Origin: Vibrio sp. CB1-14
Lineage (GTDB): Bacteria > Pseudomonadota > Gammaproteobacteria > Enterobacterales > Vibrionaceae
Assembly (NCBI RefSeq): GCF_040412085.2
Contig: NZ_CP115922.1
Location: 177,016 to 241,015, forward strand
Reading direction: 5' to 3'
Length of the DNA stretch: 64,000 nt
The translations under genes were made by a program, and so were the position numbers. This document shows positions 7,834-35,695 of this stretch, piece after piece. The notes under the pieces are model-generated. The model was not told where the DNA came from. It did not search any database and saw only the letters and a list, made by a program, of their open reading frames with translations. Every line of letters starts with the position of its first letter. Positions within the stretch are counted from its first letter, which is position 1.

Positions 7834-7852
7834 TTTCTTCGATACATAGTGC

Positions 7853-13251: not shown

Positions 13252-13269
13252 ATGAGTGAACTTAATATT

Positions 13270-14709
13270 ATGAAAAAATCAATGATTACTTTGGCATTGG
13301 CAACGGCTGCTTTTACTAGTATTGCGAGTGAAGTTCCATCTGGATATCCGGTTCTCAATAGCGAAGAAGTTTACCAGCAAATGGATCTCGAGAATCTAAC
13401 AAGAGCGTTTGTCGACCTGCAACCTGAAGCTGCCTTTATGTCTCTTTACCACTCTTATTTTGATGCCGGTTCAACAGAGCAGAATATAGGTATTATGAAA
13501 ACGTCGGTAGATCCAAGACAAATTGTGCTTACTGCAAACTCTGAAACCGTTTATGCCGTTCATCCTGTGAACTTGGAAGTACAAGGAGGAGCCGTGGTGT
13601 TAGAGGTTCCACCGGGTGTGATGGGTATGGCAAATGGTCCTGGATGGACGTCGTTTGCAGATTTTGGATTGACTGGTTCTGATCGAGGCAAAGGAGGTAC
13701 CTATTTACTTACTGCACCTGGATGGGAAGGAGAAGTACCGTCAGATATGATTCACGCACCTTCACCGACCAATACTATCGTCTGGCTAATTAGAGCTTTT
13801 CAAGGTAAGGAGGGAATGCCAGGGGCCGTCAATACATTAACAAACGGCCTTAAAACGTATTCTCTTGCTGATGCGAATGAGCCACCTAAAACTACCTTCT
13901 ACAATACCTCTGCACCGGTATACGATGATGGTGGGTATCAGGATATGCTTTTTCATAAGAAGGATATTCCGGCATTGATTCAACAGTACTATCTATTAAA
14001 TGGATATGATGCAGAGAAGCACAGTTACAATACTGCACACTTATATCATGCTGGCTTTTTTAATAATTCGATTGATGAAGATTTGCTAAAAGAAGCAAAG
14101 GATCTAGCCTGGGAACGCGTACTTACATTAACGTTTTCTAACCGAGAGCAAAATGCTTATAAATGGGGGCAAGAGCAAAGCCATTGGGTATTACCCAATA
14201 CAACGGCTGATGAAAACTGGACACATCGGGACTTTGATATTGTTGACCCAGTAGCTCAAGTTGTTTGGGCTCATCAAGCAACCTTTACCGCTGCAGCCAT
14301 GACTCGGCCGCCTAGAGGCACAGGAGCCGTCTACGTGTCTACCTATGTAGATAGCGACGGAAACTATTTGAATGGTTCAAATTGTTATCAGCTAGACATT
14401 CCAGCAGATGTTCCTTATAGCAATTTCTGGTCTTTGGTGACCTACAATGCGCCAGAGCGTTCAATGATTCAGAACGATCATTTTACGTGGGGAATAAATA
14501 GTTACCAAGAAGGGCTGGAGCAGAATACCGATGGGTCTTACAGTATTTATTGGGGGCCTAATGTAGACAATAATGAAAATTCAATTCAAACCAATTTCAA
14601 TGAAGGGTTCTTCCCATATTTTAGAATCTATGATCCTACTGACACGTGGTATGACAATAGCTGGGTAATTCCGAATATTGAGAGAGTTGAATGTTCGGAA
14701 TATAAATAA
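13270..14709 (+). CDS. Periplasmic DUF1254/DUF1214 protein
   Basis: The ATG at 13270 gives a signal peptide (MKKSMITLALATAAFTSIAS); an ATG six codons upstream in the same frame is also possible. The mature protein has a DUF1254 N-terminal half (LTANSETVYAVHPVNLE, PPGVMGMANGPGWTSFADFG, GGTYLLTAPGW) and a DUF1214 C-terminal half (CYQLDIPADVPYSNFWSLVTYN..., then a WGPN strand and a C-terminal W). About 480 residues is normal for the family. The function of these exported proteins is not established. It is followed by the DUF3943 gene on the same strand. Confidence 0.82.
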   Translation: MKKSMITLALATAAFTSIASEVPSGYPVLNSEEVYQQMDLENLTRAFVDLQPEAAFMSLYHSYFDAGSTEQNIGIMKTSVDPRQIVLTANSETVYAVHPVNLEVQGGAVVLEVPPGVMGMANGPGWTSFADFGLTGSDRGKGGTYLLTAPGWEGEVPSDMIHAPSPTNTIVWLIRAFQGKEGMPGAVNTLTNGLKTYSLADANEPPKTTFYNTSAPVYDDGGYQDMLFHKKDIPALIQQYYLLNGYDAEKHSYNTAHLYHAGFFNNSIDEDLLKEAKDLAWERVLTLTFSNREQNAYKWGQEQSHWVLPNTTADENWTHRDFDIVDPVAQVVWAHQATFTAAAMTRPPRGTGAVYVSTYVDSDGNYLNGSNCYQLDIPADVPYSNFWSLVTYNAPERSMIQNDHFTWGINSYQEGLEQNTDGSYSIYWGPNVDNNENSIQTNFNEGFFPYFRIYDPTDTWYDNSWVIPNIERVECSEYK

Positions 14710-14881
14710 ACGTTCCCATACTATTTATATAATTGTATGAGCAATATGGTGCCTATATTCCAAGGCACTATATTGTTCAACATCTCTTGAAAATAGAAGC
14801 CTCTCCAATTTAATAGTCACTTTGCAAGGCATTTATTGTCGACGCCCCATTATATGCAATGTGATGTTTAAAGGTGCTCCA

Positions 14882-16321
14882 ATGAATATACCGTTTATCA
14901 CTGCCCAGCTAGGGCTAGTGTTGACCATTTCGATGTCCGCAGCGTTTGCAAGTAACACCGGAAAAACGCTTAAGCTAAGTAGTGAGAATGTTGTCATTAC
15001 AACAACTCACTGGCGATATAACTCTGTCAGCGAGTTAGAGGATGCCAATGACATCACAAGCCTGACGATTTATTCAGCGAATAGCTACTCCAACTCGGCG
15101 TGGGAGGAAATGGATCATTGGGATGATGTGTACCATTCTCCCTATCGAGTCTCTTTGTTCTCCGCTGAAAATGGTGAGGATGCCGAGCGTTTGTGGTCCC
15201 AAACTAAATCAATAGGGGCCTATGGGCTGGGAGTCGCTGGAGTGTTAGCACTAATGCCTACCTCTATTACTCAATGGGAAAAAAACGGTGATCCATTAAT
15301 GGAGAAATGGTGGAACAATGTCAGTAAAGGACCAGTTTGGGATCGTGATGTTTGGTATATCAATTACCTTGGGCATCCTTATTTCGGTGGTGTCTACTAT
15401 CAGTCGGCAAGAAAGTCTGGTTACCGTCAGTGGGACTCATTTCTATATTCCACATTGATGTCTACGTTTTACTGGGAGTACGGTGTAGAAGCATTTGCAG
15501 AAGTCCCCTCTATACAAGATTTATTCGTAACACCCATCATGGGTTGGGTGTATGGTGAGTGGGCATATCATAAAGAGCAACAGATTAGGCTCAGTGGCGG
15601 AACAGTTCTAGGTTCCTCGACGTTAGGGAGCACTACACTGTTTTTCTTAGATCCTGTTGATAGCCTTGGGAGAGGTGTCAACCACTTAGCGGGTCGCGAC
15701 TTAGTGACTGCGGGTTCTGGTTTCATGGGGGTTCAAGAAACAAACTTGCCCAATGGAAGTACCGAGAGGCAGTTTAGGTTCCAGGTTCAATATGAGCTGG
15801 TCACGACAACAGGTTCAAAAAAACATAGAAGTGATTATTACTCACAAACAACGCAAGATCCCGTGACGTACAGTATCGTAGGTGTATCTGCGGGTGTCAG
15901 TCATGTCGCCCCTGCTAACAGTTGGTCATTGGAGCCAGGTATTGGAGCGACATTTTCCCTTGGTTTACATTTTTCACCTGAACTCTCAGGCCACTTAACT
16001 TATACCCGAGCTCAACTAAATGATGTTCAAACTCAGCAGTCGGTTACTTACGAAAACTATAGTGTAAATGCACTTTACTATTTCAATAGTGATTCTTCGT
16101 TAAGGCCTTTTTTTACCGCTGGCTTTGGTGAAGCGATGAAAGACATGGACAGAAAACAAAAAACGTTTCAAGTTAACGGAGGTCTAGGCCTTCACTACAA
16201 AATTAATAACAATTGGGCGATTCAAACAGATTGGCGTTATGCCAAGGGAACAAGAGAGAGTGTTAATGATAAAGTGACAACAGGAAAGCTCATTTATAGA
16301 TTTGGTCGTGGAGAGCTGTAG
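14882..16321 (+). CDS. DUF3943 protein with outer-membrane barrel domain
   Basis: The start at 14882 follows AAGGTG and gives a signal peptide (MNIPFITAQLGLVLTISMSA, cut near AFA). Residues of about 110-240 show the DUF3943 pattern (WDRDVWYINYLGHPYFGGVYY, then a GWVYGEW segment). The C-terminal 140 residues look like an OmpA-type eight-stranded barrel with the ending KLIYRFGRGEL. The 479-residue length fits. It is probably an outer-membrane protein of unknown function, cotranscribed with or following the DUF1254 gene after 170 bases. Confidence 0.75.
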   Translation: MNIPFITAQLGLVLTISMSAAFASNTGKTLKLSSENVVITTTHWRYNSVSELEDANDITSLTIYSANSYSNSAWEEMDHWDDVYHSPYRVSLFSAENGEDAERLWSQTKSIGAYGLGVAGVLALMPTSITQWEKNGDPLMEKWWNNVSKGPVWDRDVWYINYLGHPYFGGVYYQSARKSGYRQWDSFLYSTLMSTFYWEYGVEAFAEVPSIQDLFVTPIMGWVYGEWAYHKEQQIRLSGGTVLGSSTLGSTTLFFLDPVDSLGRGVNHLAGRDLVTAGSGFMGVQETNLPNGSTERQFRFQVQYELVTTTGSKKHRSDYYSQTTQDPVTYSIVGVSAGVSHVAPANSWSLEPGIGATFSLGLHFSPELSGHLTYTRAQLNDVQTQQSVTYENYSVNALYYFNSDSSLRPFFTAGFGEAMKDMDRKQKTFQVNGGLGLHYKINNNWAIQTDWRYAKGTRESVNDKVTTGKLIYRFGRGEL

Positions 16322-18314: not shown

Positions 18315-20778
18315 ATGGGGAAAATGAACGCTTCTTCCAAGTCCGTCGCTCTCATAAGAGTGACCATGCTAGTTATCATGCTTAGCATCAGTCTCGTGAT
18401 AGCTATCTATACAACGATTGCTCTTTCAATTGAAAAACAAGCACTCTCAAAGCACATCAATAAACAAGTTGAAATGAGCTTAATTACACTGAGTAATAAT
18501 ATTGCTCCTTTGATGCAAGCGTATGCTATTAATGAATATAAAAAAATCATCTTAAATGAAGCAAGAGAAAGAAATTACCAAGCTATTGTGGTTTATGACA
18601 ATCAGTTCGCCAAAATTCTTAACCGAGATAACTATGTTTCGGGTGTAACAAAAGTTAATGGTGAAATTTCAGAGTGTGACGAGGAAAAGGGCTATTTGTT
18701 TGGTGATGAGTTTGTCATAACAAGCATGCCTATTGAATCACCAAACGGTGAGGAGATTGGCAAAGTAAAGATCAGTGTTTCTGATAGCATTATTAAGGAT
18801 AAGATGTATGAGTCGCTTTTTCATGCCGTACTCTCAGGTCTAATACTTAACGCTGTTATCTTATCGATATTATATTTTCTTTTACAACGGTTTGTATCGA
18901 AACCCTTAGCGAGTTTAAAGCTTCAGTTAGAAGTTGATGAAGTCAATACCATTCCCAATCAGGAGTTGAAGCTCAGTGGGTATAATGAAATTGATGGTTT
19001 TATTCGGGTTGTAAACCAGATGTTTTCAACAATCAAAGCAACGCGAATGAAGCTGCTGGAAGAACAGAGAGATTTGAATAGTGTTATTGCAGCAACCAAA
19101 ATTGGCACTTGGTACTGGAATATAAAGTCGGGTGAAGTTAAATTTAATGAAAGATGGGCAGAGATGCTCGGCTATCGCTTAGCAGAGCTTGAACCACTCA
19201 CTTTCAAGACTTGGGAAAAGCTCTGTCACCCAGAAGATTTTGTTCAATCAGAAGAACAATTAAAGCGCCACTTTGAAGGTTCTCTTGAAGTTTATGAATG
19301 TCAATGTCGTGTTCAACATAAATCTGGACAATGGCTTTGGATACTCGCTCGAGGACAGGTGGTGAAATGGGAAAAGACTGGTGAACCGATAGAGATGTTT
19401 GGGACATATCTAGACGTAACGGAAAAGAGCCATGCAGAAGAAGAATTGAGAATGTCAGCGAGTGTTTTTGACAACACGAGAGAAGGTATTTTAATTCTTG
19501 ATAATTTGGGGTTAGTTCGAAGAGTTAATGAAGCGTTTATTTCAGCTAATGACTACAGTAGAGAAGAACTATTGGGTCACTCTTTAGAGTCAATGATAGA
19601 TGAAAGTGAATCTCAGGTTCGCTATGCCCAACTGAAACAAAAAGTGTTAAGTAATGGGTTTTGGCGTGGTGAATTATGGCTCGTAAGAAAAGATGGTCAA
19701 GCTTATCCTGAACTTGTCAGCATAACGGCAGTTAGGGACTCTCAAAATAGGCTATCTAATGTTGTTGCTCTGTTTACAGATATATCACGCCTTAAAGAGC
19801 AAGAGAAGCAACTAGAGTTACTTGCACTCTATGACCCCCTCACGAAACTGCCTAATCGTAACTTATTGGTGACCAAAGTCAGTGAGTTAATAAAATTCAA
19901 TGAATTCGGTCGATATATGGCAGTTCTGTTTATTGACCTCGATGAGTTTAAAAAGATTAATGATTCTTTTGGACATGAAGTTGGCGATGAGGCACTAAAG
20001 TTACTCGCTTCTACCTTGAGTAAAAATATTCCTTCAAACGATATTCTAGTAAGGTGGGGGGGAGATGAATTTATTATTATCCTTAATAATGTTCGGAATA
20101 AAACTAAAGTAAAATCGTACGCTTCAAAGCTACTCAATATAATTTCTACGATGAGATTTAAAACAGATTTGATTCACCCTCAGCCCTTCTCTGCGAGTAT
20201 TGGTGTGACTATGACGGAGGCGGATAGTGTCACAGATATAGAGCACCTTATTCGACAAGCTGACCTAGCTATGTATGAATCGAAACTGCAGGGGGGGAAT
20301 AGTATGTCATTCTTTAACCCTGAGCATGATAGAAGTAAGCGAAAACGACATGCTAAAAAGCGACAGTTGGAACAAGCCGTTTCTGAAAATGAGCTGGAAC
20401 TATACTTTCAGCCAAAAATGAACCTGAGAAGCAATGAGCTGATAGGAGCAGAAGCCCTTCTTCGTTGGAATCACCCGATAAAGGAGTGTTAACCCCGAGC
20501 AATTTTTGTTTGATATAGAAACTCCCGCGCTACAATGTGAGATTGGTGACTGGGTAATGACTCAAGCCGTTCATCAAGTGTCCGAGTGGATGAAATGTGG
20601 CATGGATATACAATTGTCTATTAACGTATCCAGCTATCAATTGGATGATATCAATTTTACCAGTCGCCTAAGAGCGCTATTGTCTCAATATAAGGTTCCT
20701 CCAAGCTATGTACAGATAGAAATTCTTGAATCGAGTGCTCTAGAACTGGTAGAAAGAGCTCAGGCGGTGATTGAGCGT
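18315..20778 (+). pseudogene. PAS-PAS-GGDEF-EAL signalling protein, frameshifted and truncated
   Basis: A membrane cyclic-di-GMP enzyme: a first transmembrane helix near residues 13-37, a periplasmic sensor region, a second helix near 170-190, two PAS domains (about 250-490), a GGDEF domain with intact RWGGDEF at about residue 580, and the start of an EAL domain (LRWNHP). Within the A-run near 20478 the frame shifts by one extra base and ends at KEC-stop; the next frame continues the EAL domain as SVNPEQFLFDIE and ILESSALEL. IS copy 2 then cuts it before the rest of the domain. The GGDEF part could still be made as a 725-residue protein, but the EAL part is lost. Confidence 0.82.
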
Positions 20779-21832
20779 GGCTTTGTTGCGTAATTCGATG
20801 GAACTAAATCAGGAAGTTACGATCTGATCGTCTACATCAGTTAATCATCGTAGCCTTATGCCAAAACCTCGTTATAAAACAACGAACTGGAAACAGTACA
20901 ACAAAGCCCTAATCAATCGTGGTTCACTCACTTTCTGGATTGATGAAGAAGCCATAAGCGAGTGGAAGCAAAGCAAACAGAGTAAGCGCGGCAGGCCTCG
21001 TCAATTCAGCGATCTTGCCATTACAACCGCATTGATGGTGAAACGAGTTTTCTCTATGCCATTGAGAGCGCTGCAAGGTTTTCTAGACTCAGTATTTAAG
21101 CTGGCTAACATTCCGCTTGTTTGTCCACATTACACCTGTATAAGCCGTCGAGCCAAGGAAGTTGAGGTCTCATTTAAAACTAAAACCAGAGGTACGATAC
21201 AGCATCTGGCCATTGATGCTACTGGTCTCAAGGTTTATGGAGAAGGTGAATGGAAGGTCAAGAAGCATGGTACTGACGGGAAGCGCAGAGTCTGGAGAAA
21301 GCTGCATTTAGCAGTCGATACCAGCACTCACGAGATAATAGCAGCAGAACTAAGTTTATCTAATGTCACTGATGCAGAAGTCCTTCCTAATTTGCTTAAG
21401 CAAACACGTCGACGAATCATCGAGATATCTGGAGATGGTGCTTACGACACAAGGAATTGCCATGATGCCATACGGATTAAGCGAGCTGTTCCGCTTATCC
21501 CACCAAGAGAAGGGGCTGCCTTCTGGGAACAAGGACACCCTCGCAATTTATCGGTAGGTTGCCAAAAGCTCTACGGCTCCAACCAGAACTGGAAAAAGCG
21601 GTATGGTTATAACAAGCGTTCACTCTCAGAAACAGCCATGTATCGTGTGAAGCAGTTGCTAGGAGGTAGATTAAGCCTGAGAAATTACAATGCTCAGGTA
21701 GGTGAAACCTACGCCATGATTAAAGCACTGAACAAGCTTACAGGGCTTGGTATGCCTGAAACTCAGTATGTTGTATAAGAATTACCCAATTTCAGGCAGT
21801 TTGGTTTTCTGTCCGAATTACGCAACAAAGCC
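20779..21832 (+). mobile_element. IS5-family (IS903-like) insertion sequence, copy 2
   Basis: The same 1,054-bp element as copy 1. Its flanks do not match: ATTGAGCGT on the left and ACTCTAATG on the right. The right flank is the exact reverse complement of the 9 bases to the right of copy 3 (CATTAGAGT), which shows that the segment between copies 2 and 3 is inverted relative to the interrupted target. Confidence 0.93.
20858..21778 (+). CDS. IS5-family DDE transposase, copy 2
   Basis: Translation identical over all 306 residues to copies 1 and 3, with the same DDE context (IDATG, SGDGAYD, SETAMYR). The identity points to recent spread within this element or frequent gene conversion. The gene is intact. 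Confidence 0.92.
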   Translation: MPKPRYKTTNWKQYNKALINRGSLTFWIDEEAISEWKQSKQSKRGRPRQFSDLAITTALMVKRVFSMPLRALQGFLDSVFKLANIPLVCPHYTCISRRAKEVEVSFKTKTRGTIQHLAIDATGLKVYGEGEWKVKKHGTDGKRRVWRKLHLAVDTSTHEIIAAELSLSNVTDAEVLPNLLKQTRRRIIEISGDGAYDTRNCHDAIRIKRAVPLIPPREGAAFWEQGHPRNLSVGCQKLYGSNQNWKKRYGYNKRSLSETAMYRVKQLLGGRLSLRNYNAQVGETYAMIKALNKLTGLGMPETQYVV

Positions 21833-22349
21833 ACTCTAATGCCTGCTTTTCTGCATCGTCGACAGTCAGAGAATATTTACGCTTAATCATAACTACTCTG
21901 TTCGCATACCAGCATTGATTGACTTCGGGAAGCCAACTCGCAGCATCTTTATCGCATTTGCCTTGCTTGCTACATCGATTGACTTTAGCGGACGCCAAAG
22001 TCAGGTTCAATAGATCAGACGCGAAGTCTTTCCTTGTTTGAGTAGACGCATCGCAAAGTCCGCTATCATGCCCCTCTGCAGCCGCAACTATGTGTTCGAT
22101 ATCGGTATTCTTCGCTGAAGAGAAATAGCTACCGCTATACGGGCCATAGATCTTACCGTCCATCTCACCAATGATGTCCGTTTCCAAAGATGCTCGATAA
22201 GGATATTGTTTTTTCTTGTTATAGTCGGAGCAGCGATTTTCTGGTGCGACAACCAGCCCTCGCCATAAGTCCTCGGCCACATTCTCAGAGTGAGAGCTAA
22301 ACGAAGCGCCGCTCAATGCCAGTAGTAAATATTGAAAGTATGCTTTCAT
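21833..22349 (-). pseudogene. 5' half of a secreted HNH-type nuclease gene
   Basis: Encodes a signal peptide (MKAYFQYLLLALSGASFSSH) and an HNH-like nuclease domain: DIEHIVAAAEGHDSGLC with the catalytic histidine, then DLLNLTLASAKVNRCSK and ASWLPEVNQCWYANRVV, the usual order in secreted HNH/DUF1524-like nucleases. It is cut at codon 172 by IS copy 2. The missing end lies at 28893-29128 on the other strand: joining the two at the shared CATTAGAGT gives one 247-residue frame reading ALESILSNCSSVEMV. The retained half ends in about 13 codons of IS sequence. Confidence 0.85.
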
Positions 22350-22396: not shown

Positions 22397-23356
22397 TTAA
22401 TCCATCATTGAGAAAGCTTTGATAGGTTCAAGTTTCAAGTGCCTGTTGTTATCAAGACCACTTTTTACATAGTCTACAAACGCACGAAGCTGTCGAGGAA
22501 TGTACTTTGATTGCACATATTGAGCGATAATTTTGCCCTGGTAGTTACCACTCACATGCCAATCAGCGAGGAGCGGTACAAGGGTACCATTATCAATATA
22601 CGACTGAACTGCAAACTCCGGAAAGACTGACACCCCGAGCCCACGAAGCACCGCTTCTCGACGAATTTCACTATGATTTACCGCAAAACTGCCTTTAACG
22701 TCCACTGTCGTTGAGTGTCTGTTCGACGAGAATGACCAGATTTTATCTCTTGGGTTCTCTCCTAGGCACAAACAGTTGTGTTCTGAAAGCTTATCTGGAT
22801 GAGATGGCATACCAATACGTTCTACATATGCAGGGCTTGCACAAAGAATTAATCTGCATTGCCCAAGGCTAGTAGCAACAAGATTCTCTTTGGGTGAATT
22901 TGTGATTTGAATTAATACATCAACTTCATCACTCATAGGATCGATAAAGTGATCTGCTACTTTAAAATGTAAATCGACATTTGGATAAGCCTCTGCAAAG
23001 TCCAAAACTATTGGCATTAAAACTTGTCGTGATAACGCTTTTGGAGCCGCGACTCTTAACGAACCGCATATATCCTCTTGTTCAGATTGTGCAGCAAATA
23101 CTGCGTTCTTAGCAGAACCCAACATTTCAAGGCAATGCATATGGACTTTTTTGCCTACTGGGGTCAAAGCCATATGTCTAGTGCTACGCTCTATGAGTTT
23201 TTCATTCAGCGAAGCTTCAAGTCTATGAATAGTTCGACTTACTGAAGACGGCGCACAACCCAGCACTTTTGCCGCCTTTGCAAAACCACCTTGTTCGATG
23301 ACTTCTACGAAAACTGCCATCTCATGCAATAGTCCGATCAACTTACTTTTGTCCAC
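22397..23356 (-). CDS. LysR-family regulator of the ligase-dioxygenase-exporter set
   Basis: A 319-residue regulator with an N-terminal helix-turn-helix (MAVFVEVIEQGGFAKAAKV, then APSSVSRTIHRLE) and a CrgA/DsdC-like effector domain (RGLGVSVFPEFAV near residue 235). It is divergent from the ArgG-like gene with a 99-base spacer, the classical arrangement for a LysR regulator acting on the neighbouring operon. The spacer has an ATTAAT-rich dyad but no unambiguous T-N11-A box. The inducer is probably a substrate or product of the pathway. Confidence 0.85.
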   Translation of the reverse strand: MDKSKLIGLLHEMAVFVEVIEQGGFAKAAKVLGCAPSSVSRTIHRLEASLNEKLIERSTRHMALTPVGKKVHMHCLEMLGSAKNAVFAAQSEQEDICGSLRVAAPKALSRQVLMPIVLDFAEAYPNVDLHFKVADHFIDPMSDEVDVLIQITNSPKENLVATSLGQCRLILCASPAYVERIGMPSHPDKLSEHNCLCLGENPRDKIWSFSSNRHSTTVDVKGSFAVNHSEIRREAVLRGLGVSVFPEFAVQSYIDNGTLVPLLADWHVSGNYQGKIIAQYVQSKYIPRQLRAFVDYVKSGLDNNRHLKLEPIKAFSMMD

Positions 23357-23455
23357 AGAGCAATTATCCTTTGCGTTTGGAGCTATTTATTTCCTTTGAA
23401 TCAATATTAATACTTATATGGCCTTCTTTAAAGTCATCAGCAAAGGAAATGCGTT

Positions 23456-24670
23456 ATGAAGAAATTGAGAAGTATTGAAGATTTATTATTAATGTCTACG
23501 CAATGTAAACATATTCTCACCCTCTTTAGTGGTGGTCTAGACAGTGCGTATTTATTGTCTCTCCTATCTGAAAGTAAAGCTAAAGTCACTGCTTTAGTGG
23601 TTGACGTTGGCGAGACATATGACCGACAACGCTTACAAATAGTCTGCGACCACTTTGATGTTGAATTAGCTATTGTGGACGCAAAACAAGATTTTATTGA
23701 GTACGGCGTTTTGCCCGCTATTCAATCTCAAGCTTATTATCTAGGTGACTACCCAGTGAGTTCATCACTTAGTCGCCCTATCATTGCCCAACACGCAGTC
23801 AACACCGCAAAGAAACTCGGCTGCGACGCCATTGTTCATACCGCTACTCAATCTCAAAATAGTCTCCGTCGACTCAACGGTGCTATTGAAACGTTAGGCT
23901 TTGACGGCTATTACGGTTCTCCATACGAGTATTCAGCGATATCAAGAGAAGAAAAAACGGATCACTTAGCTGAACAAGGTCTCATGCATTTTAAAGGCAG
24001 AGAAGTCAGTTCAGATTCTAACCTATGGTGCCGTGAGTTCGAGTCCGGCGTTATGGATAATCCCGAAGATTTCGCTGATCCAAATAGTCACTTTTCTTGG
24101 GCAGTATGGGAGCCAGAGCATCATTTGGAAAACCACACCATCAAAATTGGTTTTCATAAAGGCCACCCTGTTGAATTAAATGGTCGCGCAATTCAACTGA
24201 GTCAGCTAATCAGTTATCTAAATCGACACATTGGCGGTTATGAGATAGGACGATATGTTGGTTTTGACCATTTGGAAGAAGACGAGAAGGTACTAGAAAT
24301 TAGAGAAGCACCAGCGGCCACATTATTGATGTCTGCGTTTAAATTGCTGTCCGTCGCTACGCTACCTACTGATATTTTGCGTGCCAAACGAGTCCATGAT
24401 GACGCCTGGACTATGGAAGCTGTAGAAGGACGTTGGAACAGTTTGGCTCAACAGATGAGCTATCAGTATATTTCCACGCTTTCTGAGAGTATCACTGGCG
24501 ATGTGACCTTCACATTAACCCGAGGCGCAGCGCTACCAAGTGCGATTTACGCAGAGAACGCTCGTTACTTAAAAAACAGAGACGAGTGGGAAAAGCTCGT
24601 GACCAAAGAGCGCAGTCTACGAACAGTGAAAGCTCGTGCCGGTTTCGATCTCGATTCGAACGTAGCGTAA
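23456..24670 (+). CDS. Argininosuccinate-synthase-like ATP-dependent ligase
   Basis: The 404-residue protein follows the ArgG fold in order: PP-loop LFSGGLDSAYLL (residues 23-34), a YYLGDYPVSSSLSRPIIAQ segment matching 'YpLgTalaRPLIA', then IVHTATQSQNSLRRLN where ArgG has the HGCTGKGNDQVRFE loop, SDSNLWCREFESG matching 'DeNLWgrs.E.G', and REAPAATLL near residue 285. The aspartate- and citrulline-binding loop is much changed: the TGKGND part is replaced by TATQSQNS, losing the Asp. The enzyme therefore probably adenylates and couples a different pair of substrates. AAAGGA precedes the start. It is the first gene of an operon with a dioxygenase and an exporter. Confidence 0.78.
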   Translation: MKKLRSIEDLLLMSTQCKHILTLFSGGLDSAYLLSLLSESKAKVTALVVDVGETYDRQRLQIVCDHFDVELAIVDAKQDFIEYGVLPAIQSQAYYLGDYPVSSSLSRPIIAQHAVNTAKKLGCDAIVHTATQSQNSLRRLNGAIETLGFDGYYGSPYEYSAISREEKTDHLAEQGLMHFKGREVSSDSNLWCREFESGVMDNPEDFADPNSHFSWAVWEPEHHLENHTIKIGFHKGHPVELNGRAIQLSQLISYLNRHIGGYEIGRYVGFDHLEEDEKVLEIREAPAATLLMSAFKLLSVATLPTDILRAKRVHDDAWTMEAVEGRWNSLAQQMSYQYISTLSESITGDVTFTLTRGAALPSAIYAENARYLKNRDEWEKLVTKERSLRTVKARAGFDLDSNVA

Positions 24671-24680
24671 GGAGTGAGTC

Positions 24681-25415
24681 ATGAATACGTTAATTGCTCC
24701 CCACAGTACACGCATCACAAACGAGCTAGGCTCTAACACATACGCTTACGAGAAAGGTCAAATGTTACGTGAAGCGCTGTTTATTGATGACCAAGATATA
24801 GCTGAGTTTGCATCTCACTGGCACCAGCTCAAAATCGATAAGTATATGAACGATGGGGGTCGATACCGTTATCGTCGTTACAGTCAACTGATTAAGCTCA
24901 GACACTCAAATGAGTTAGTCCTACTTCCCCACGAACCCTATCAACAATCTATGTCCGTCAATTCACTCAATGGTGGCACATTACGCTATTTCGAGCCGAT
25001 GACTGATGACTTTCTCACCTCACCATGCCTAGAACGTCTGCTTGTTTTCCTCGCTTATTGCTTCGACGATATTCTCGGTGAAGCTAACGACTGGAACATC
25101 AAGCTTCACCCTTACCGAATCCTAGCAAATGATGAGGCTGGACAACCGACCCCTGAAGGACTGCATCGTGACGGCGTCACTTTTATTTCATCTCTTCTCA
25201 TTGCTAGACACAACATTCGAGGCGGCACGACAACGATTACCGATAATCAATGTAAGAAACTTGAGGAGATCACGATGACCGACGCATGGGACATCATCAT
25301 CGCAAATGACGCGCAGTCTATGCATCAGGTCAGTGAAATAACGCGTGAAAATGTGGAGTTCGATGCTTATCGCGATGTATTGGTGATCGCCTTTACCAAG
25401 ATCGAGGACAAATAA
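24681..25415 (+). CDS. 2-oxoglutarate-Fe(II) dioxygenase (PF10014 family)
   Basis: A 244-residue protein with the 2-His-1-carboxylate facial triad: H162 and D164 in PEGLHRDGVTFIS and H215 in SMHQVSEI, and R231 in YRDVLVIAF for 2-oxoglutarate. The PTPEGLHRDG...SLLIARHNIRGGTT pattern is that of the family containing the bacterial isoleucine dioxygenase and other free amino-acid hydroxylases. It starts 10 bases after the ligase with GGAGTG as ribosome binding site. It probably hydroxylates or oxidises an amino-acid substrate or the ligase product. The transporter follows after one base. Confidence 0.82.
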   Translation: MNTLIAPHSTRITNELGSNTYAYEKGQMLREALFIDDQDIAEFASHWHQLKIDKYMNDGGRYRYRRYSQLIKLRHSNELVLLPHEPYQQSMSVNSLNGGTLRYFEPMTDDFLTSPCLERLLVFLAYCFDDILGEANDWNIKLHPYRILANDEAGQPTPEGLHRDGVTFISSLLIARHNIRGGTTTITDNQCKKLEEITMTDAWDIIIANDAQSMHQVSEITRENVEFDAYRDVLVIAFTKIEDK

Positions 25416-25416
25416 A

Positions 25417-26319
25417 ATGCATATATTGTCAATTGTGAACAATGAAAAGCACCGGTGGCCAGTTACTGAATGGCTTTTGTTACTGGTCGCCATTTTTTGG
25501 GGTACCAGTTACGGAATGACGAAGTCCGCCCTGGTGTTTACCTCTGTTCTTATGTTTATTGCGATTCGCTTCAGTCTGACATTTATAGCACTGCTGCCTG
25601 TAGTCATTAGAGATTTTAAGCTAGGACGAAATAAAGACTGGATAACTGCGATACCGACAGGCGCTATCCTCTCTGCCATTTTTTTCTGTGAAGTAATTGG
25701 TGTTTCAAAAACCACGGCGTCGAACGCTGCGTTCTTAATTAGCCTTTCAGTGATTTTTACAGCGTTTGCAGAGAGACTGGTGAACAAGCACGAGGTGAGC
25801 ATGACCTACAAATCGCTCGTTGTCTTGTGCATTATCGGTGTCTATCTCCTCAGTCAACCAGATCTCACAAGCTTTACATTTAACTCTGGTGACTATTGGA
25901 TCCTCGGTGCGGCTTGTCTCCGCGGTTTGATGGTCACTACGACAAAACGCCTGACAGAAGGGCGCGTTATTTCAACGGTCTCTTTGACAGCCCTTCAATC
26001 GGCGACGGTCGCGGTCGTCGCCATCATTGCATGCGGATTGTTTCTGCCAATGGACGCCATATCAATCCCAACCTCACTATCATTTTGGTTGATGACCCTC
26101 TACTTGGTTGCGTTTTGCACCCTGTTCGCATTCTTTGTTCAAAACTACGCCGTTCGTCGCTTATCACCTACTCGCGTTTCTTTACTCATGGGGAGTGAGC
26201 CGCTATTTGGCGCACTGTTCGCAATGCTCTGGTTAGGAGAGCAATTAACTGCGCTGCAAGCACTTGGCGCACTGATGATCATCTCTAGTGTTATCTACGT
26301 GTCTTTGAAAAAAGCTTAA
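25417..26319 (+). CDS. EamA/DMT-superfamily transporter, likely exporter
   Basis: A 300-residue protein with about ten hydrophobic helices in two EamA repeats: LLLVAIFWGTSYGMTKSAL at the first helix and SLLMGSEPLFGALFAMLWLGE in the second repeat are typical. Members of this superfamily export amino acids and metabolites (RhtA, YdcZ types). Translation is coupled to the dioxygenase gene (ATG two bases after its stop). As last enzyme-linked gene it probably exports the pathway product. Confidence 0.85.
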   Translation: MHILSIVNNEKHRWPVTEWLLLLVAIFWGTSYGMTKSALVFTSVLMFIAIRFSLTFIALLPVVIRDFKLGRNKDWITAIPTGAILSAIFFCEVIGVSKTTASNAAFLISLSVIFTAFAERLVNKHEVSMTYKSLVVLCIIGVYLLSQPDLTSFTFNSGDYWILGAACLRGLMVTTTKRLTEGRVISTVSLTALQSATVAVVAIIACGLFLPMDAISIPTSLSFWLMTLYLVAFCTLFAFFVQNYAVRRLSPTRVSLLMGSEPLFGALFAMLWLGEQLTALQALGALMIISSVIYVSLKKA

Positions 26320-26523: not shown

Positions 26524-26586
26524 GCTCTTAAGTTCAAACTGTTAGATAAACCAATGTGTTTCAGAATCAAATAGGTGATATTGAAG

Positions 26587-27273
26587 ATGAGCCTAGAAAA
26601 AATCGACATTAACGTTACGGTCTACAATCACGCGCAGTTCTCATTTTCTTCGTTTAGCATCGCGCTATTCGACGATAATCAGTGGAACTTACCCATAGAT
26701 GAGCAGACGATTTACGCTCGTCACTGGGCGTCAGCTCCACAGCACGACGTTGTTTATGAAAGTGATTACGACCTGTTATCTTCTTCGTGCCCACTGACAA
26801 TTGAATGGGCGATTGATGGAGTTGTGCTTGATGGCCAAAGCAGATTGGGCTGTATTATCGCGTGGCATGCAACTGGAGATCCTAGCATTCAGATTGTAAG
26901 CGGCGAACTTGACCCGTCTTCGCTCGCTTTCGCTCTACCAAACGATGCGGCTTCAATGCTCTGGGGCAGCGTCGATAGCCACTTGCCTGGTATTGAGTTC
27001 TTAGACAATGGAAATACGCTGTCGAAGATCGCATTAACAAGGCTTCTTCGCCCTCCACGAGGCACTACCACACACCCAGGTGTGTCCATCACCCTAGACC
27101 GCAGCAACACACAGTTCGACATCCATATAGGGAGTAATAGAAGCTGTTCAGAGAGCCAAAATAGCCAAGTATCGGTGCTTGACCGAAGCTTAGTAACGTT
27201 AGGAAATGGCACGAATGTGACAAGAGCTAGAGTTGTTCCTATTAGTGTGGAGAAACCAAGCTTCGAGGAGTAG
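26587..27273 (+). CDS. Hypothetical protein
   Basis: About 229 residues from ATG at 26587 (a GTG at 26575 is possible). Sequence is mixed beta, rich in Asp, Ser and aromatic residues, with no signal peptide or membrane helix; it begins MSLEKIDINVTVYNH. I do not recognise the family. It lies within the inverted segment, after the exporter operon. The spacer after it (27274-27368) holds a 9-bp dyad TATAGTGAG...CTCACTATA that may end transcription. Confidence 0.6.
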   Translation: MSLEKIDINVTVYNHAQFSFSSFSIALFDDNQWNLPIDEQTIYARHWASAPQHDVVYESDYDLLSSSCPLTIEWAIDGVVLDGQSRLGCIIAWHATGDPSIQIVSGELDPSSLAFALPNDAASMLWGSVDSHLPGIEFLDNGNTLSKIALTRLLRPPRGTTTHPGVSITLDRSNTQFDIHIGSNRSCSESQNSQVSVLDRSLVTLGNGTNVTRARVVPISVEKPSFEE

Positions 27274-27838: not shown

Positions 27839-28892
27839 GGCTTTGTTGCGTAATTCGGACAGAAAACCAAACTGCCTGAAATTGGGTAATTCTTATACAA
27901 CATACTGAGTTTCAGGCATACCAAGCCCTGTAAGCTTGTTCAGTGCTTTAATCATGGCGTAGGTTTCACCTACCTGAGCATTGTAATTTCTCAGGCTTAA
28001 TCTACCTCCTAGCAACTGCTTCACACGATACATGGCTGTTTCTGAGAGTGAACGCTTGTTATAACCATACCGCTTTTTCCAGTTCTGGTTGGAGCCGTAG
28101 AGCTTTTGGCAACCTACCGATAAATTGCGAGGGTGTCCTTGTTCCCAGAAGGCAGCCCCTTCTCTTGGTGGGATAAGCGGAACAGCTCGCTTAATCCGTA
28201 TGGCATCATGGCAATTCCTTGTGTCGTAAGCACCATCTCCAGATATCTCGATGATTCGTCGACGTGTTTGCTTAAGCAAATTAGGAAGGACTTCTGCATC
28301 AGTGACATTAGATAAACTTAGTTCTGCTGCTATTATCTCGTGAGTGCTGGTATCGACTGCTAAATGCAGCTTTCTCCAGACTCTGCGCTTCCCGTCAGTA
28401 CCATGCTTCTTGACCTTCCATTCACCTTCTCCATAAACCTTGAGACCAGTAGCATCAATGGCCAGATGCTGTATCGTACCTCTGGTTTTAGTTTTAAATG
28501 AGACCTCAACTTCCTTGGCTCGACGGCTTATACAGGTGTAATGTGGACAAACAAGCGGAATGTTAGCCAGCTTAAATACTGAGTCTAGAAAACCTTGCAG
28601 CGCTCTCAATGGCATAGAGAAAACTCGTTTCACCATCAATGCGGTTGTAATGGCAAGATCGCTGAATTGACGAGGCCTGCCGCGCTTACTCTGTTTGCTT
28701 TGCTTCCACTCGCTTATGGCTTCTTCATCAATCCAGAAAGTGAGTGAACCACGATTGATTAGGGCTTTGTTGTACTGTTTCCAGTTCGTTGTTTTATAAC
28801 GAGGTTTTGGCATAAGGCTACGATGATTAACTGATGTAGACGATCAGATCGTAACTTCCTGATTTAGTTCCATCGAATTACGCAACAAAGCC
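27839..28892 (-). mobile_element. IS5-family (IS903-like) insertion sequence, copy 3
   Basis: The same 1,054-bp element in inverse orientation to copies 1 and 2. Left flank ACTAAGTCT and right flank CATTAGAGT do not match, but the right flank is the inverted twin of the base run right of copy 2. The outer flank of the target (28893-28901) together with copy 2's right side forms the original 9-bp duplication. Confidence 0.93.
27893..28813 (-). CDS. IS5-family DDE transposase, copy 3
   Basis: 306 residues, identical in translation to copies 1 and 2, with intact DDE residues. In combination with copy 2 it provides a pair of inverted 1-kb homologies able to flip the 6-kb segment between them. 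Confidence 0.92.
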   Translation of the reverse strand: MPKPRYKTTNWKQYNKALINRGSLTFWIDEEAISEWKQSKQSKRGRPRQFSDLAITTALMVKRVFSMPLRALQGFLDSVFKLANIPLVCPHYTCISRRAKEVEVSFKTKTRGTIQHLAIDATGLKVYGEGEWKVKKHGTDGKRRVWRKLHLAVDTSTHEIIAAELSLSNVTDAEVLPNLLKQTRRRIIEISGDGAYDTRNCHDAIRIKRAVPLIPPREGAAFWEQGHPRNLSVGCQKLYGSNQNWKKRYGYNKRSLSETAMYRVKQLLGGRLSLRNYNAQVGETYAMIKALNKLTGLGMPETQYVV

Positions 28893-31219: not shown

Positions 31220-31229
31220 GGACTTGAAC

Positions 31230-31880
31230 ATGAATTTATTCAAGCGCAAAGAAAAAAATGAAACAGAAGCTATGTCACCTGGACAAGGAACTTGGACTGC
31301 CGCTATCAATCAAGCGAAGAAGTTGACCACAATGCTTATGATCAGTGTTCTCGCCAACTTGGTATTGGTCTTCTCACTTGTTTCCAAGCAGCCAGTGATG
31401 ACGGTGACCCCTCCAAACTTTGCAGAGGCATTCACACTAGTTGGTGAGAAAGCAGATGAGGCTTGGAAGCGAATGTGGGCGGTCGCTATTGCTGAACTGC
31501 TTGGTAACGCGAATGAGCGCTCTCTCGATACGGTACTTGATGCTTTTAAACCAATGCTTCGTGGTGATGATTATGAAGTGATGGCGTCTCAACTTGAAGC
31601 ACACGTCAAAGCTTTGTCGATTCGCAATCAATACCAAGAGTTCGACGTTGTCGATTCTTTCTTCGATGAGAAGTATGACAGGGTCATCATATACGGTCAG
31701 CGAAGTATTAAGAGCAAACGTGTTTCAGACGATGAGAGGCTAAACAGTCGCCCCATCAGATGGACATATGAGATAAGCATTCAAAACGCGTTTGGTACGC
31801 CGAAACTGATGCACATCAGCCAATACGAAGGTGCTCCGAAAATCGATAGAGCCCGCTTTTCAAGGGAGTCCACACAATGA
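31230..31880 (+). CDS. traE: Mating-pair formation protein TraE (VirB5/VirB8-like)
   Basis: 216 residues from the ATG at 31230 (an in-frame TTG two codons earlier is less likely). One membrane helix near residues 30-52 (TTMLMISVLANLVLVFSLV) and a periplasmic domain with the TraE pattern IIYGQRSIKSKRVSDDERL and a strand YEISIQNAFGTPKL. TraE is part of the inner-membrane platform of the F-type system. Its stop overlaps the traK start by 4 bases. Confidence 0.87.
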   Translation: MNLFKRKEKNETEAMSPGQGTWTAAINQAKKLTTMLMISVLANLVLVFSLVSKQPVMTVTPPNFAEAFTLVGEKADEAWKRMWAVAIAELLGNANERSLDTVLDAFKPMLRGDDYEVMASQLEAHVKALSIRNQYQEFDVVDSFFDEKYDRVIIYGQRSIKSKRVSDDERLNSRPIRWTYEISIQNAFGTPKLMHISQYEGAPKIDRARFSRESTQ

Positions 31881-33040
31881 AAAATCTAACAATGGCAATT
31901 GCTCTTCTACTAGTTGGAATAGGGATAACGCCAACCTATGCGCAGGTGGCAGACATCGTTCCAGTGGACAACAACAAGCAAGAATTGACAGAAGAACAGG
32001 TAGAGTCCGTCATGTCGCAAGTTGTTGACCAGCTACCTGTTGAAAAAAAGCAAAAGCTCATCAATTTAACGACAGAAAGTCAAAGAGATGATTTTGGACG
32101 CTCTGTCAGCACTGTAGGCGCAGAAAAAGCGGTGTCACTAACCCCTCAAAACTCTCGGCCAACTAACAATGTAGAGCCTATAAACAACGAAGCGCCGCCT
32201 AGGCCACTATCGTCTATGGAACGATTGCAGGCAAACATGATGAAGAAATATAAAGGTGTGCAGCGGTATAAAGTCAATGCCGGTGACAACATAACGCTAC
32301 CGGCTGCTAAGTACATTCTTAATCGGATTAAAGTCAATTTCTCCGAGATAGCAGTGCGCTCTAGCGATCCAAATGTAGTGCTTAAAGTTGAAGGTTCACA
32401 TGTCTATTTCTCTACTGAGTCAGATGCACCATTTGGACTCATAATGTTTGAAAAAGGGGTGCCAGATACACAAATCAATGTATCCATCGTGCCGCTCAAT
32501 GTGATGCCTGCCATGGTGGATATAAAAGTTCGTTTTAATTCGACCATGAAGTCTCAAATAGCCAAGGTTAAACGAGAGCGACAACATGACATACAAGAGC
32601 AAGAAGAGCGGATCAGAGATATGGAGTCAGAGCTCCTGCTACAGTCAGATCCGGACTTCCAAAGCAATGATTACGAAACTTCCATCGACTTGCTCGTGGC
32701 ACAAGTAGCAGGTAATGGGAGACCCAATGGGTTCGACTTAAGTGATAACATTCCAGACTCTGCTCGATACCCTTGCAGGTTTGACGCCTATGCGGTGACA
32801 AAGCAACGACTTATTTCTTCGAGGCGCATTGTTGATGTGGTGCTGGTAGAAAATAAAAATCGATACAACGTTGTTCTTGAAGAGAGCCAGTGTTGGATAG
32901 ATGACGATGTAATTTCTACAGGGATCCTAAATCGAACAACTTTAGCTCCCGGCGAGAAGACAGAAGTATACGTCGTACGAGACCGCTTGCATGAGACTCG
33001 AATGAAATCGAGAAGGCTGCGTCCTTCATTATTGGACTGA
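31877..33040 (+). CDS. traK: Secretin-like protein TraK (VirB9-like)
   Basis: 387 residues with a signal peptide (MKNLTMAIALLLVGIGITPTYA) and a long polar linker to about residue 130. The following beta-rich part has VNAGDNITLPAAKYILNRIK and NVMPAMVDIKVRF of the TraK type. It is longer than F TraK (242) and similar to versions on SXT/IncA-C-type elements. It forms the outer-membrane core with TraV and TraB. Confidence 0.87.
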   Translation: MKNLTMAIALLLVGIGITPTYAQVADIVPVDNNKQELTEEQVESVMSQVVDQLPVEKKQKLINLTTESQRDDFGRSVSTVGAEKAVSLTPQNSRPTNNVEPINNEAPPRPLSSMERLQANMMKKYKGVQRYKVNAGDNITLPAAKYILNRIKVNFSEIAVRSSDPNVVLKVEGSHVYFSTESDAPFGLIMFEKGVPDTQINVSIVPLNVMPAMVDIKVRFNSTMKSQIAKVKRERQHDIQEQEERIRDMESELLLQSDPDFQSNDYETSIDLLVAQVAGNGRPNGFDLSDNIPDSARYPCRFDAYAVTKQRLISSRRIVDVVLVENKNRYNVVLEESQCWIDDDVISTGILNRTTLAPGEKTEVYVVRDRLHETRMKSRRLRPSLLD

Positions 33041-33050
33041 GGGTAGAGCA

Positions 33051-34400
33051 ATGGATATTAAACAATATTGGGAAAACAGTACCGTACGTTTCGGTGTTGT
33101 ATTCGGTGCAATAGCAGTTGTAGCTTTGCTTGTTAGTCTATTTATTCGACCAGAAAAAATAGCGGATCAAATTGAAGCAAAGAAAAAAATTACACCCATT
33201 TACGCGCCAAATAACACAGGTGACTTGCTTGAGCGCCAAGAAATGGCGCAAGTTCAAGATGAGCTAACACGTATTGCGCTGGAAGATCAGCGCTCAAAAA
33301 TCAACAATAACAGCTACGAGTACGATGCACTATACAGTCAGTTGGAACGTATGGGGAAAAAAGTCGATAAGTTAGACAATGAGTTGACGCTTTGGAAAAC
33401 GGGTCAGAAAACACTTGAGCGAACCCCTTACCAACGAACTCAGGTTCCCAATAGCCGCCAAGTAACAGTGGATGCAAATGGGAATAGGGCAACCGTTGAG
33501 CCAAGCTCGGTACCAAGGCCTTCGTCAAGCACTAATCAACTTAACCAAAGTCTTCCGAATAGAGTCTCCGGTATACGAAGTGTCGATGAGGCGAACGATA
33601 CGATTTTACTTCAAAACGGACAGGTAAAAACCCTTGTGAAAGCAAACGAAATTATGACGCCTGAGAAAGCAGAATCCGAAGCTGAGCTACAAGCCTGGCG
33701 TGATAAGAAAGAAGCCGAGCTTTCAGAAGCACTAGCCAAACTAGAAGCTACACCTGAGAAAGTATCTTATAAGGTGCAACTGCCTACCACCAGCTTGATT
33801 ACCGGTGTGCTGTTATCTGGTATGGAGGCACCAACATCGGTAGGCTCAAAGCGCGAACCGCTTCCAGCTGCAGTGCGAATCAAACATGATGCACTACTGC
33901 CTAACAACTACCGAGTTGATTTACGTGATTGCCAAGCTTTGGTTTCAGCAGTGGGTTCTTTATCAGACCGCCGTGCTTATATGCGTATGGAATCTATTGT
34001 GTGTATTGATGAGCAGGGGCGTGTAGCCGAATCAAATGCGAAAGGCTATGCCACTGGTGCTGATGGTAAAGCCGGAATACCAGGTATGCTGGTGGCTCGA
34101 AACGGAGAAGTGTTAAAAGGTTCCATGTGGGCAGGTTTCTTTTCAGGTTTAGCGCAAGGCATTGCTCCTCAGCGTGTCGTCGGTATTGACGTTAATTCAG
34201 AAGGTGGCGGATTTCAAACTCCTGATCTTGGCTTTATCGGAGCGGCTGCAGGTTTAAGTGGAACAGCAACGGCGCTAGATAGGATTGCAGATTACTACGT
34301 GAAGATGCTGGAAGAGATCTGGCCAACCATCAACGTGGATGCATTCCAAGAGGTCACGTTTTTTCTTCAAGCACCACTCACTTTAACTTTCCAAGACTAA
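33051..34400 (+). CDS. traB: Channel core protein TraB (VirB10-like)
   Basis: 449 residues: one N-terminal membrane helix (FGVVFGAIAVVALLVSLFI, residues 14-32), a coiled coil (about 60-125), a proline- and Ser-rich linker and a VirB10-type C-terminal domain from about residue 245 (GVLLSGMEAPTSVGSKREPLP, RVDLRDCQALVSAVG..., LSDRRAYMRMESI). It spans from the inner to the outer membrane and couples energy to channel opening. The domain order is complete. Confidence 0.9.
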   Translation: MDIKQYWENSTVRFGVVFGAIAVVALLVSLFIRPEKIADQIEAKKKITPIYAPNNTGDLLERQEMAQVQDELTRIALEDQRSKINNNSYEYDALYSQLERMGKKVDKLDNELTLWKTGQKTLERTPYQRTQVPNSRQVTVDANGNRATVEPSSVPRPSSSTNQLNQSLPNRVSGIRSVDEANDTILLQNGQVKTLVKANEIMTPEKAESEAELQAWRDKKEAELSEALAKLEATPEKVSYKVQLPTTSLITGVLLSGMEAPTSVGSKREPLPAAVRIKHDALLPNNYRVDLRDCQALVSAVGSLSDRRAYMRMESIVCIDEQGRVAESNAKGYATGADGKAGIPGMLVARNGEVLKGSMWAGFFSGLAQGIAPQRVVGIDVNSEGGGFQTPDLGFIGAAAGLSGTATALDRIADYYVKMLEEIWPTINVDAFQEVTFFLQAPLTLTFQD

Positions 34401-34410
34401 GGGGGCGAGC

Positions 34411-34905
34411 ATGTCGGACAAGCAGCACTCTGTGAATGAGAATATGATAGATGTGATAGGTCCTCAACAAGACCTAGAGGAGATGATTGAAAGTGAAGAG
34501 ACAAAGGATAAGAAGTCTCGTATGGAAGGGGTGCTAAACACTGCTGCTTCTTCTGCCTCTTCACACAAAGGAACACGTATTCTAGTTATCTTGCTCGCAC
34601 TGCAGATGGTCATACTGGCCTTCATGGCAAATACAATTTGGTTTACTTCAGATGAAGCGCCTTTGAAGCACGAAGCCTCATCTCGATTGGTAGTTTACCC
34701 ATATCGACAAGTTCACGATGATTTGAGGGCACAGGGCTATTCTGCCGTTTCGATTGAGACCTACCATAAGAACATGATCACGATATTGAATCGTAAAGGT
34801 TATATCGTGCTGTCTGCAGGTGCAGTTGAAGGGGCGATACCAGCGGAATGGCAGGCTCCATTGATAAGTATCGATGAAATGAATGCGTTAGCTGACGGTC
34901 AATGA
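34411..34905 (+). CDS. Single-pass membrane protein of the transfer operon
   Basis: 164 residues: acidic cytoplasmic N-terminus, one helix (LVILLALQMVILAFMANTIWF, near residues 53-75) and a periplasmic domain that contains VSIETYHKNMITILNRKGYIVL. In position it matches accessory genes such as traP or trbI next to traB, but I cannot show homology. It is 10 bases after traB and is followed by a terminator, so it ends the operon. Confidence 0.7.
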   Translation: MSDKQHSVNENMIDVIGPQQDLEEMIESEETKDKKSRMEGVLNTAASSASSHKGTRILVILLALQMVILAFMANTIWFTSDEAPLKHEASSRLVVYPYRQVHDDLRAQGYSAVSIETYHKNMITILNRKGYIVLSAGAVEGAIPAEWQAPLISIDEMNALADGQ

Positions 34906-34950
34906 ATCTAGATCAAGGGTAGTTTTCGTTGAGATAACTACGGAGAACAG

Positions 34951-34983
34951 GGCTTGCATGGTAAGTGTCATGCAAGCCTTTTT
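34951..34983 (+). terminator. Terminator of the traL-traB operon
   Basis: GGCTTGCATG (34951-34960) pairs perfectly with CATGCAAGCC (34969-34978) across an 8-base loop and is followed by five T. It ends the rightward transfer operon before the leftward genes. Confidence 0.87.
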
Positions 34984-34998
34984 AATTGAGGATGTTGA

Positions 34999-35232
34999 TT
35001 AAAAGTTGCTGGCGTTTTCTTTTCTGTTCATAGGCTTATCAAGCCATTTTAGCGGCCATGCCTTAAGTATTTTGTTAATTCGCTCTTTTGCAAGAGAGCT
35101 GGCTATTCGTTGGTCTTTGATTTGAGACATTTCATCAAGCACAAAACGAAGCTCTTTATATAGGTTAATAATGAAATAGACCAGTTTAAGAGCAGCAATA
35201 ATACAAAGTAACACTATTAACGTTTCAATCAT
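34999..35232 (-). CDS. Small single-pass membrane protein
   Basis: 77 residues with a hydrophobic helix (LIVLLCIIAALKLVYFII) and a basic cytoplasmic tail ending AWPLKWLDKPMNRK. The design and the tail motif (W/M)PL(K/R)W(L/M)D match the protein at 26329-26523. Role unknown; it may be an exclusion or anchoring peptide, but nothing proves this. Confidence 0.55.
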   Translation of the reverse strand: MIETLIVLLCIIAALKLVYFIINLYKELRFVLDEMSQIKDQRIASSLAKERINKILKAWPLKWLDKPMNRKENASNF

Positions 35233-35542
35233 ACGCTATCCGCTTATTCTTATGATTACAAATAATCTTTTTAATCCAATGGTTTGACGTTTCTGTAAGT
35301 GCTAAAAGCACTTCTTATCATCACTCGATTAGTATAGGCTTTGAAGCGTACGGTTTTTAAGATTAAGCAACCCAAAATTTATATTTCTGAATTAACCCCA
35401 CATAATTAACGTTCTGTGCATGTTTGTTAGATTGATAACGTATTGATTGAAAGCGATTTAGCATAGTTCTAAACGTAAGTTCTCAATTTTGAGACTGGAT
35501 CAATTTAATCTTTAGCTATCTGTTAATGGCTTTCATTTTTTC
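35233..35542. other. Intergenic region, 310 bases
   Basis: AT-rich, no gene or RNA seen. It separates the small membrane-protein gene from the end of the recE-recT operon. Confidence 0.35.
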
Positions 35543-35695
35543 TTACTTCTCTGAAGGCTCTGTTTGCCTTGTACGATGACTAAATAGGGTCGCAATCGCC
35601 AAGGGGCTAGAAACATCTTTGCCTAGAAAGTTCTTTGGGTTTTGCTTAGTCAATTTCTTCAGTAAAGTTTTAAGCTGAGTGTCTTTACCATTCAT
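35543..35695 (-). CDS. 50-residue protein coupled to recT
   Basis: The ATG at 35695 overlaps the last codons of recT (its stop is at 35685), and the frame ends at TAA 35543. The 50-residue product MNGKDTQLKTLLKKLTKQN... is basic and helical. The 11-base overlap suggests translational coupling and a role beside RecT. I do not recognise it. Confidence 0.5.
   Translation of the reverse strand: MNGKDTQLKTLLKKLTKQNPKNFLGKDVSSPLAIATLFSHRTRQTEPSEK

Follow-up and report, generated by a model that had tools for sequence, protein, structure and literature searches.

Why should a plasmid-like replicon of Vibrio carry a gene resembling that of argininosuccinate synthase (ArgG), packed against genes for an oxygenase and an exporter, and what would such a group of genes make? 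We studied this locus in Vibrio sp. CB1-14, whose genome has three contigs; the window, i.e., the whole stretch of DNA analysed, is the last 64 kb of contig C3, a plasmid-like contig of 241,015 bases. The locus encodes an ArgG-like protein (argG_rel, NCBIfam NF038212), a Fe(II)/2-oxoglutarate (2OG)-dependent oxygenase of family PF10014, an EamA-type transporter and a divergently transcribed LysR-type regulator. These four genes are a real, co-inherited small-molecule gene set, beyond what chance would give (see below). We consider it probable, with some reserve, that together they constitute a self-contained route to a small metabolite with a nitrile group, with dehydration by the ArgG-like protein, oxidation by the PF10014 enzyme, export by EamA and control by LysR.

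The four reading frames ran uninterrupted between 22397 and 26319. As the first-pass annotation of this stretch had described, the genes were tightly packed: 10 bases separated the ArgG-like gene from the oxygenase gene and a single base separated the latter from the EamA gene, with the starts of the lysR and ArgG-like genes lying 99 bases apart in divergent orientation. The coordinates and Pfam families were confirmed for all four. The oxygenase scored 190.6 bits against the Pfam gathering score of 23.1, and the transporter 119.4 bits, in two stretches, against 28.2. The HxD...H triad noticed earlier in the oxygenase (H162, D164 and H215) was present, together with the C-terminal R231, which we take to bind 2OG, in 77 of 77 aligned rows; these rows hold duplicates, and three fragments were dropped from them (one in L089, two in L047).

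Relatives were collected by a genome scan with a protein alignment of the ArgG-like family alone, from which the best 80 of 171 confirmed relatives were kept, so that loci close to the window are over-represented. The 87 loci scored comprised the best genome relatives, seven plasmid loci (H1-H5, H7 and H8, out of 56 plasmid records) and the window, after removal of one duplicate strain; L004, L005, L023 and L090-L109 were excluded from the scoring, and the fragments in L047 and L089 counted as oxygenase present. A divergent LysR gene, the oxygenase and EamA all stood beside argG_rel in 50 of the 87 loci including the window (49 of the 86 others), from 21 named genera (gamma-, beta- and alphaproteobacteria) and from some unassigned ones. 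Another 14 of the 87 had the oxygenase and EamA without the divergent LysR gene, among them loci of Agrobacterium vitis, Rhizobium and Mesorhizobium plasmids, a cyanobacterium metagenome-assembled genome (MAG), Sorangium and a Sulfurospirillum MAG. EamA was found beside argG_rel in 64 of the 87 loci, and the oxygenase alone in six. None of 12 control loci of true ArgG had an oxygenase, EamA or matching LysR match within 1.5 kb, against 9 of 9 argG_rel loci from the same control search, window included. The earlier proposal of a small-molecule gene set whose homologues would occur together elsewhere was thus borne out.

Across the 50 full-set loci the tree distances of the four genes correlated in all six pairs (Spearman 0.57 to 0.89), the largest of 1000 shuffled correlations per gene pair being 0.20; host relatedness contributes to this correlation. 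The operon is accessory, being present in 9 of 61 congeneric genomes (this one included) and in 5 of 398 phylum-wide.

In some relatives the parts of the set are joined in one protein. The ArgG-like and oxygenase domains were fused in Rhizobium sp. 007 (an annotated protein of 654 residues, whose open frame has the two domains at 15-395 and 428-654), in the Sulfurospirillum MAG (L067), where the first ~28 positions of the ArgG profile fell outside the open frame, and in two genomes of one genus (G364 and G507), where both domains shared a 665-residue open frame. EamA and the ArgG-like protein were fused in Microvirga lupini (L089). We regard these fusions as the strongest evidence that the ArgG-like protein, the oxygenase and EamA would share one pathway. 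The pairing of argG_rel with an oxygenase recurs in other forms as well, since the Streptomyces locus L077 had a PhyH-family Fe/2OG oxygenase downstream of argG_rel, with a homologue in L078, and Burkholderia cenocepacia had a TauD-family gene between argG_rel and the PF10014 gene.

Neighbouring frames were clustered, and clusters of four or more loci were examined. They corresponded to overlaps with the four genes themselves or to synteny confined to Vibrio or to Collimonas, apart from three of other families; each of these three reached across genera and included no more than three full-set loci, and one held the aldehyde dehydrogenase of L049. By this clustering no further enzyme recurred widely across genera in the 50 full-set loci and no carrier-type gene recurred with the full set. 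The full four-gene set is free-standing.

The ArgG-like protein is not an ordinary argininosuccinate synthase. It fell below the curated equivalog cut-offs for ArgG (190.8 against 334 bits for NF001770 and 186.5 against 268.2 bits for TIGR00032) and passed that of argG_rel (551.5 against 425 bits), a family of at least 555 database proteins at E <= 1e-60. The host's own ArgG, encoded on contig C1, reached 614.1 bits (NF001770) and 454.4 bits (TIGR00032). The first-pass annotation had seen correctly that the ATP (adenosine triphosphate) site of ArgG was kept and that the TGKGND loop, which we take to bind aspartate in ArgG, was changed. The ATP loop SGGLDS was retained, with S25 in 91 and G26, D29 and S30 each in 93 of 94 family rows. 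The TGKGND loop, kept in the host ArgG, reads TQSQNS in the window protein, and its K is replaced by S (S133) and its D by S or T (S/T136) in 94 of 94 family rows, both being unchanged in 12 of 12 true ArgG sequences. Note that the 94 rows include duplicates (L023 and L001 are both V. halioticoli, and five of the eight same-genus loci L090-L097 repeat the stretch of named Vibrio loci); L066 and L068 (short) and L004 and L098 (copies of the window) were dropped from them.

The closest argG_rel relative with a reported activity is ArtA (PDB 9leh, 9lei). ArtA is reported to carry out an ATP-dependent dehydration of amide to nitrile, and not the joining of two molecules, in the context of auranthine, and its amide-interacting residues are given as Q146, S197 and D199 (PMC13060819). 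Using an inferred numbering offset of 29, their counterparts in the window protein are Q134, S185 and D187, all retained. The fold predicted for the ArgG-like protein is nearer to ArtA than to ArgG.

In the pathway that we propose, the ArgG-like protein would use ATP to activate a carboxamide as its adenylate, and elimination of adenosine monophosphate (AMP) would leave the nitrile, in line with the mechanism put forward for enzymes of the ArtA type. The PF10014 oxygenase would oxidise the same small molecule, by hydroxylation or possibly ring closure, before or after the nitrile step; EamA would export the product, and the divergent LysR protein would sense an inducer and control the operon. 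The substrate would be a free carboxamide amino acid, glutamine being our guess and asparagine less likely. We favour a free amino acid on two grounds: the full set has no recurrent carrier-type gene beside it, and free amino acids are the substrates of PF10014 enzymes (PMC3684760). The product might serve as an antimetabolite or a signal. If this is right, a compact and sporadically scattered bacterial pathway would have one ATP-dependent enzyme that puts a nitrile on a small molecule, beside an oxygenase and an exporter; the argG_rel family would offer many natural variants of that enzyme, and the label "argininosuccinate synthase" that its members bear in some sources would need correction.

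A more specific version, which we hold to be quite improbable, is that the cassette turns glutamine into a free cyano-amino acid, and that the oxygenase, like other PF10014 enzymes acting at C-4, hydroxylates the carbon beside the nitrile to give a cyanohydrin amino acid able to release hydrogen cyanide, or closes a ring there to give a cyano-cyclopropane amino acid. Ring closure is a reaction of HrmJ-type relatives of the oxygenase. Were this version true, the pathway would be an oxygen-dependent and exportable cyanogenic one, unlike the glycine-based bacterial pathway.

Several observations weigh against the nitrile pathway. By the scoring criteria 17 of the 87 loci (14 from Actinomycetes, three from Burkholderia/Paraburkholderia) had neither oxygenase nor exporter nor LysR gene beside argG_rel. 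Residues S185 and D187 also occur in 12 of 12 true ArgG sequences and hence do not discriminate the ArtA type. The window copy departs from its family at positions conserved in at least 90% of members (N131 to T, the letter found in ArgG; G186 to S; L200 to M; E299 to S; F338 to Y), and its end branch is long, ranking third of 50 in the trees of both enzymes; because of these changes at near-invariant positions and the long branch, it may have shifted in substrate specificity or come under relaxed constraint. No report of an activity, metabolite or substrate for any bacterial argG_rel member was found in the open literature. Also, a link that at first sight favours nitriles has to be read with care. 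In Mycobacterium arosiense the nitrile hydratase alpha and beta genes directly follow argG_rel, and a nitrile hydratase stands there in all five genomes with argG_rel among the 148 Mycobacterium genomes searched (L076 at 6977-9741, L085 and L117-L121; some of the loci end within the beta gene). These loci are orthologous, their argG_rel being 76-88% identical to that of L076, and the adjacency is therefore probably one inherited event. Genes of PF02979 are common in Mycobacterium (103 of 148 genomes), which weakens nitrile hydratase as a rare marker and leaves only the adjacency to count. The link is a hint of nitrile or amide chemistry and is silent on direction, because nitrile hydratase runs the reverse reaction.

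The first-pass annotation had suggested that a hydroxylated amino acid is ligated to a second substrate. In this explanation the ArgG-like protein would be an amide- or amine-forming ligase that adenylates a carboxylate or ureido group and joins a second substrate to it, the oxygenase supplying the hydroxylated partner. The retained ATP site is consistent with a ligase, as are an oxygenase of the amino-acid hydroxylase family and the residues Y99, S104, N135, R139, S185 and D/E271, presumably citrulline contacts in ArgG, which are kept in most or all argG_rel rows. However, the loop holding aspartate in ArgG has been remodelled in all of argG_rel, the full-set loci share no further enzyme that is widespread among genera, and ArtA, the nearest characterised relative, reportedly dehydrates an amide to a nitrile; the earlier suggestion is therefore not supported, and we regard a ligase as unlikely.

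It seems likewise improbable that the nitrile chemistry has as its substrate a urea (e.g., conversion of a citrulline-type ureido group to a cyanamide) or an intermediate that is larger or bound to a carrier, the four-gene set acting together with genes elsewhere in the genome. A urea would suit the ancestry of the protein, since ArgG binds citrulline, and a larger substrate would suit those loci where argG_rel adjoins peptide-synthetase or AMP-ligase genes. Pfam matches place such genes beside it in L072 and L077, both from Actinomycetes. In Salmonella enterica subsp. diarizonae (L063, 2-10371) a peptide synthetase, argG_rel, a PF10014 oxygenase and a seryl-tRNA synthetase-like gene (TIGR00414, 476 bits) stand in a row, the last of which may be a self-protection or supply gene, and on a Mesorhizobium huakuii plasmid (L009, 8014-11119) an annotated peptide synthetase lies downstream of the EamA, argG_rel and oxygenase trio. 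Because of this adjacency, the nitrile unit may be built into peptides in these loci. The cluster of AMP-ligase/peptide-synthetase-type frames spanned 15 loci, but none of them was among the 50 with the full set.

We find it very improbable that the set serves detoxification or scavenging, modifying and expelling an amino-acid analogue that other organisms produce. Export of amino acids and their analogues is common among EamA-type proteins, and the accessory distribution of the operon would agree with such a role; yet ATP-driven nitrile formation would be costly and would create a reactive group instead of removing one, and the fusion of two enzymes would better fit committed biosynthesis. 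That the ArgG-like protein is a divergent, dispensable duplicate of argininosuccinate synthase can be practically dismissed, for despite the common fold and 27% identity to the host ArgG, an ordinary ArgG is ruled out by the scores below the cut-offs, the loss of the aspartate loop and the separate, normal ArgG of the host.

Table 1. Position of the operon and of the insertion sequence (IS) copies in the window, counted from its first base.
Feature	Position	Strand	Description
LysR-type regulator	22397..23356	-	319 residues, GTG start; Pfam HTH_1 and substrate domain
Divergent intergenic region	23357..23455		99 bases; presumed promoter and operator
ArgG-like protein, argG_rel (NCBIfam NF038212)	23456..24670	+	404 residues; PF00764 and PF20979; predicted ATP-dependent amide-to-nitrile dehydratase (nitrile synthetase)
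Fe(II)/2-oxoglutarate-dependent oxygenase, PF10014	24681..25415	+	244 residues; predicted amino-acid oxygenase
EamA/DMT-family transporter	25417..26319	+	300 residues; predicted product exporter
IS5-family copy A	20779..21832	+	1054 bases; transposase 20858-21778; brackets the operon, outside the pathway
IS5-family copy B	27839..28892	-	identical to A, inverted; brackets the operon, outside the pathway
IS copy C	10643-11696		1054 bases, identical to A and B

The only conserved stretch picked out of the divergent intergenic region was a dyad-like GCAA...TTTGC next to lysR (23360-23374), found at one distance from lysR in 18 of the 50 full-set loci and matched 16 times in 619 kb of control sequence; no operator is claimed there, because its minus strand resembles the lysR ribosome-binding site.

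The first-pass annotation also had the pathway carried by a mobile element, which holds in part. At 31224-34400 the replicon has conjugation genes of the TraE- and TrbI-like kind together with a TraK match too weak to reach its cut-off, and IS copies A and B, identical and inverted, bracket the operon. A composite transposon was not established, because the outer 9 bases of the pair differ (ATTGAGCGT at one side, CATTAGAGT at the other), although a later rearrangement could have erased a matching target duplication; perfect 9-base duplications were found at copy C and at the copy in L112. In IS orientation, the right flank of A and the left flank of B both read ACTCTAATG, the two halves of one 9-base duplication, a sign that recombination between the two copies has inverted the operon-bearing segment. 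When the 8.1-kb region was searched against plasmids at near identity, 110 records came up and no record covered 80% of the query; those listed, 20 in number, cover 26% of it, corresponding to the IS copies.

Other genes were noted in the surroundings. A RecT-like gene lies near the conjugation genes (31224-36695). A PAS/GGDEF/EAL-like signalling gene, identified by eye at 18315-20793, is broken: its frame stops at 20492, the gene resumes in a different frame, and copy A interrupts it. Between copy A and the LysR gene, 21792-22349 encodes a small protein with a GmrSD_C match, and downstream of EamA a 232-residue open frame (26575-27273) had no Pfam or NCBIfam match. At 13252-16321 a DUF1254/DUF1214 protein gene is followed by that of a DUF3943/outer-membrane-barrel protein.

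Both ingredients of the proposed nitrile pathway are already known, i.e., ArgG-like nitrile synthetases (ArtA) and PF10014 operons with a LysR regulator or an exporter (IDO, Hil). Their combination as a free-standing bacterial cassette is apparently undescribed in the open literature: no description of an operon with ArgG-like, PF10014 and EamA genes was found among open-access papers, a scope that leaves out most subscription papers, those on ArtA included.

ArgG itself has the fold, ATP site and Pfam domains of the window enzyme and differs from it in the aspartate loop and the curated scores. The Fe/2OG enzymes HrmJ, BelL and TqaL (PDB 9dqp, 8jms and 7eeh), which we take to be ring-forming, are 15-27% identical to the window oxygenase. 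PMC3684760 describes the Hil and IDO operons of Bacillus thuringiensis and Pantoea ananatis, with LysR, a PF10014 hydroxylase and, in some, an RhtA-type exporter; the word "argininosuccinate" occurs nowhere in that paper. In those operons a PF10014 oxygenase acting on a free amino acid stands with a regulator of the LysR type (Hil) or with an exporter of the RhtA type (IDO and some Hil), an arrangement that the operon studied here resembles; it is unlike them in having an ArgG-like enzyme in place of the PF13640 protein HilA, the HilC dehydrogenase and the HilD ligase. A scan of the six non-IS proteins encoded between the IS copies gave no match to either HilA or HilC. Other nitrile-forming enzymes named in PMC13060819, the asparagine-synthetase-like PesC, the QueC-like QueC/ToyM and the kinase-like CalN, are not ArgG-like and use other substrates, unlike the window enzyme. 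ArtA, as presented in the same paper, belongs to a nonribosomal peptide context, whereas the window enzyme stands with a PF10014 oxygenase and EamA under LysR, with no peptide synthetase.

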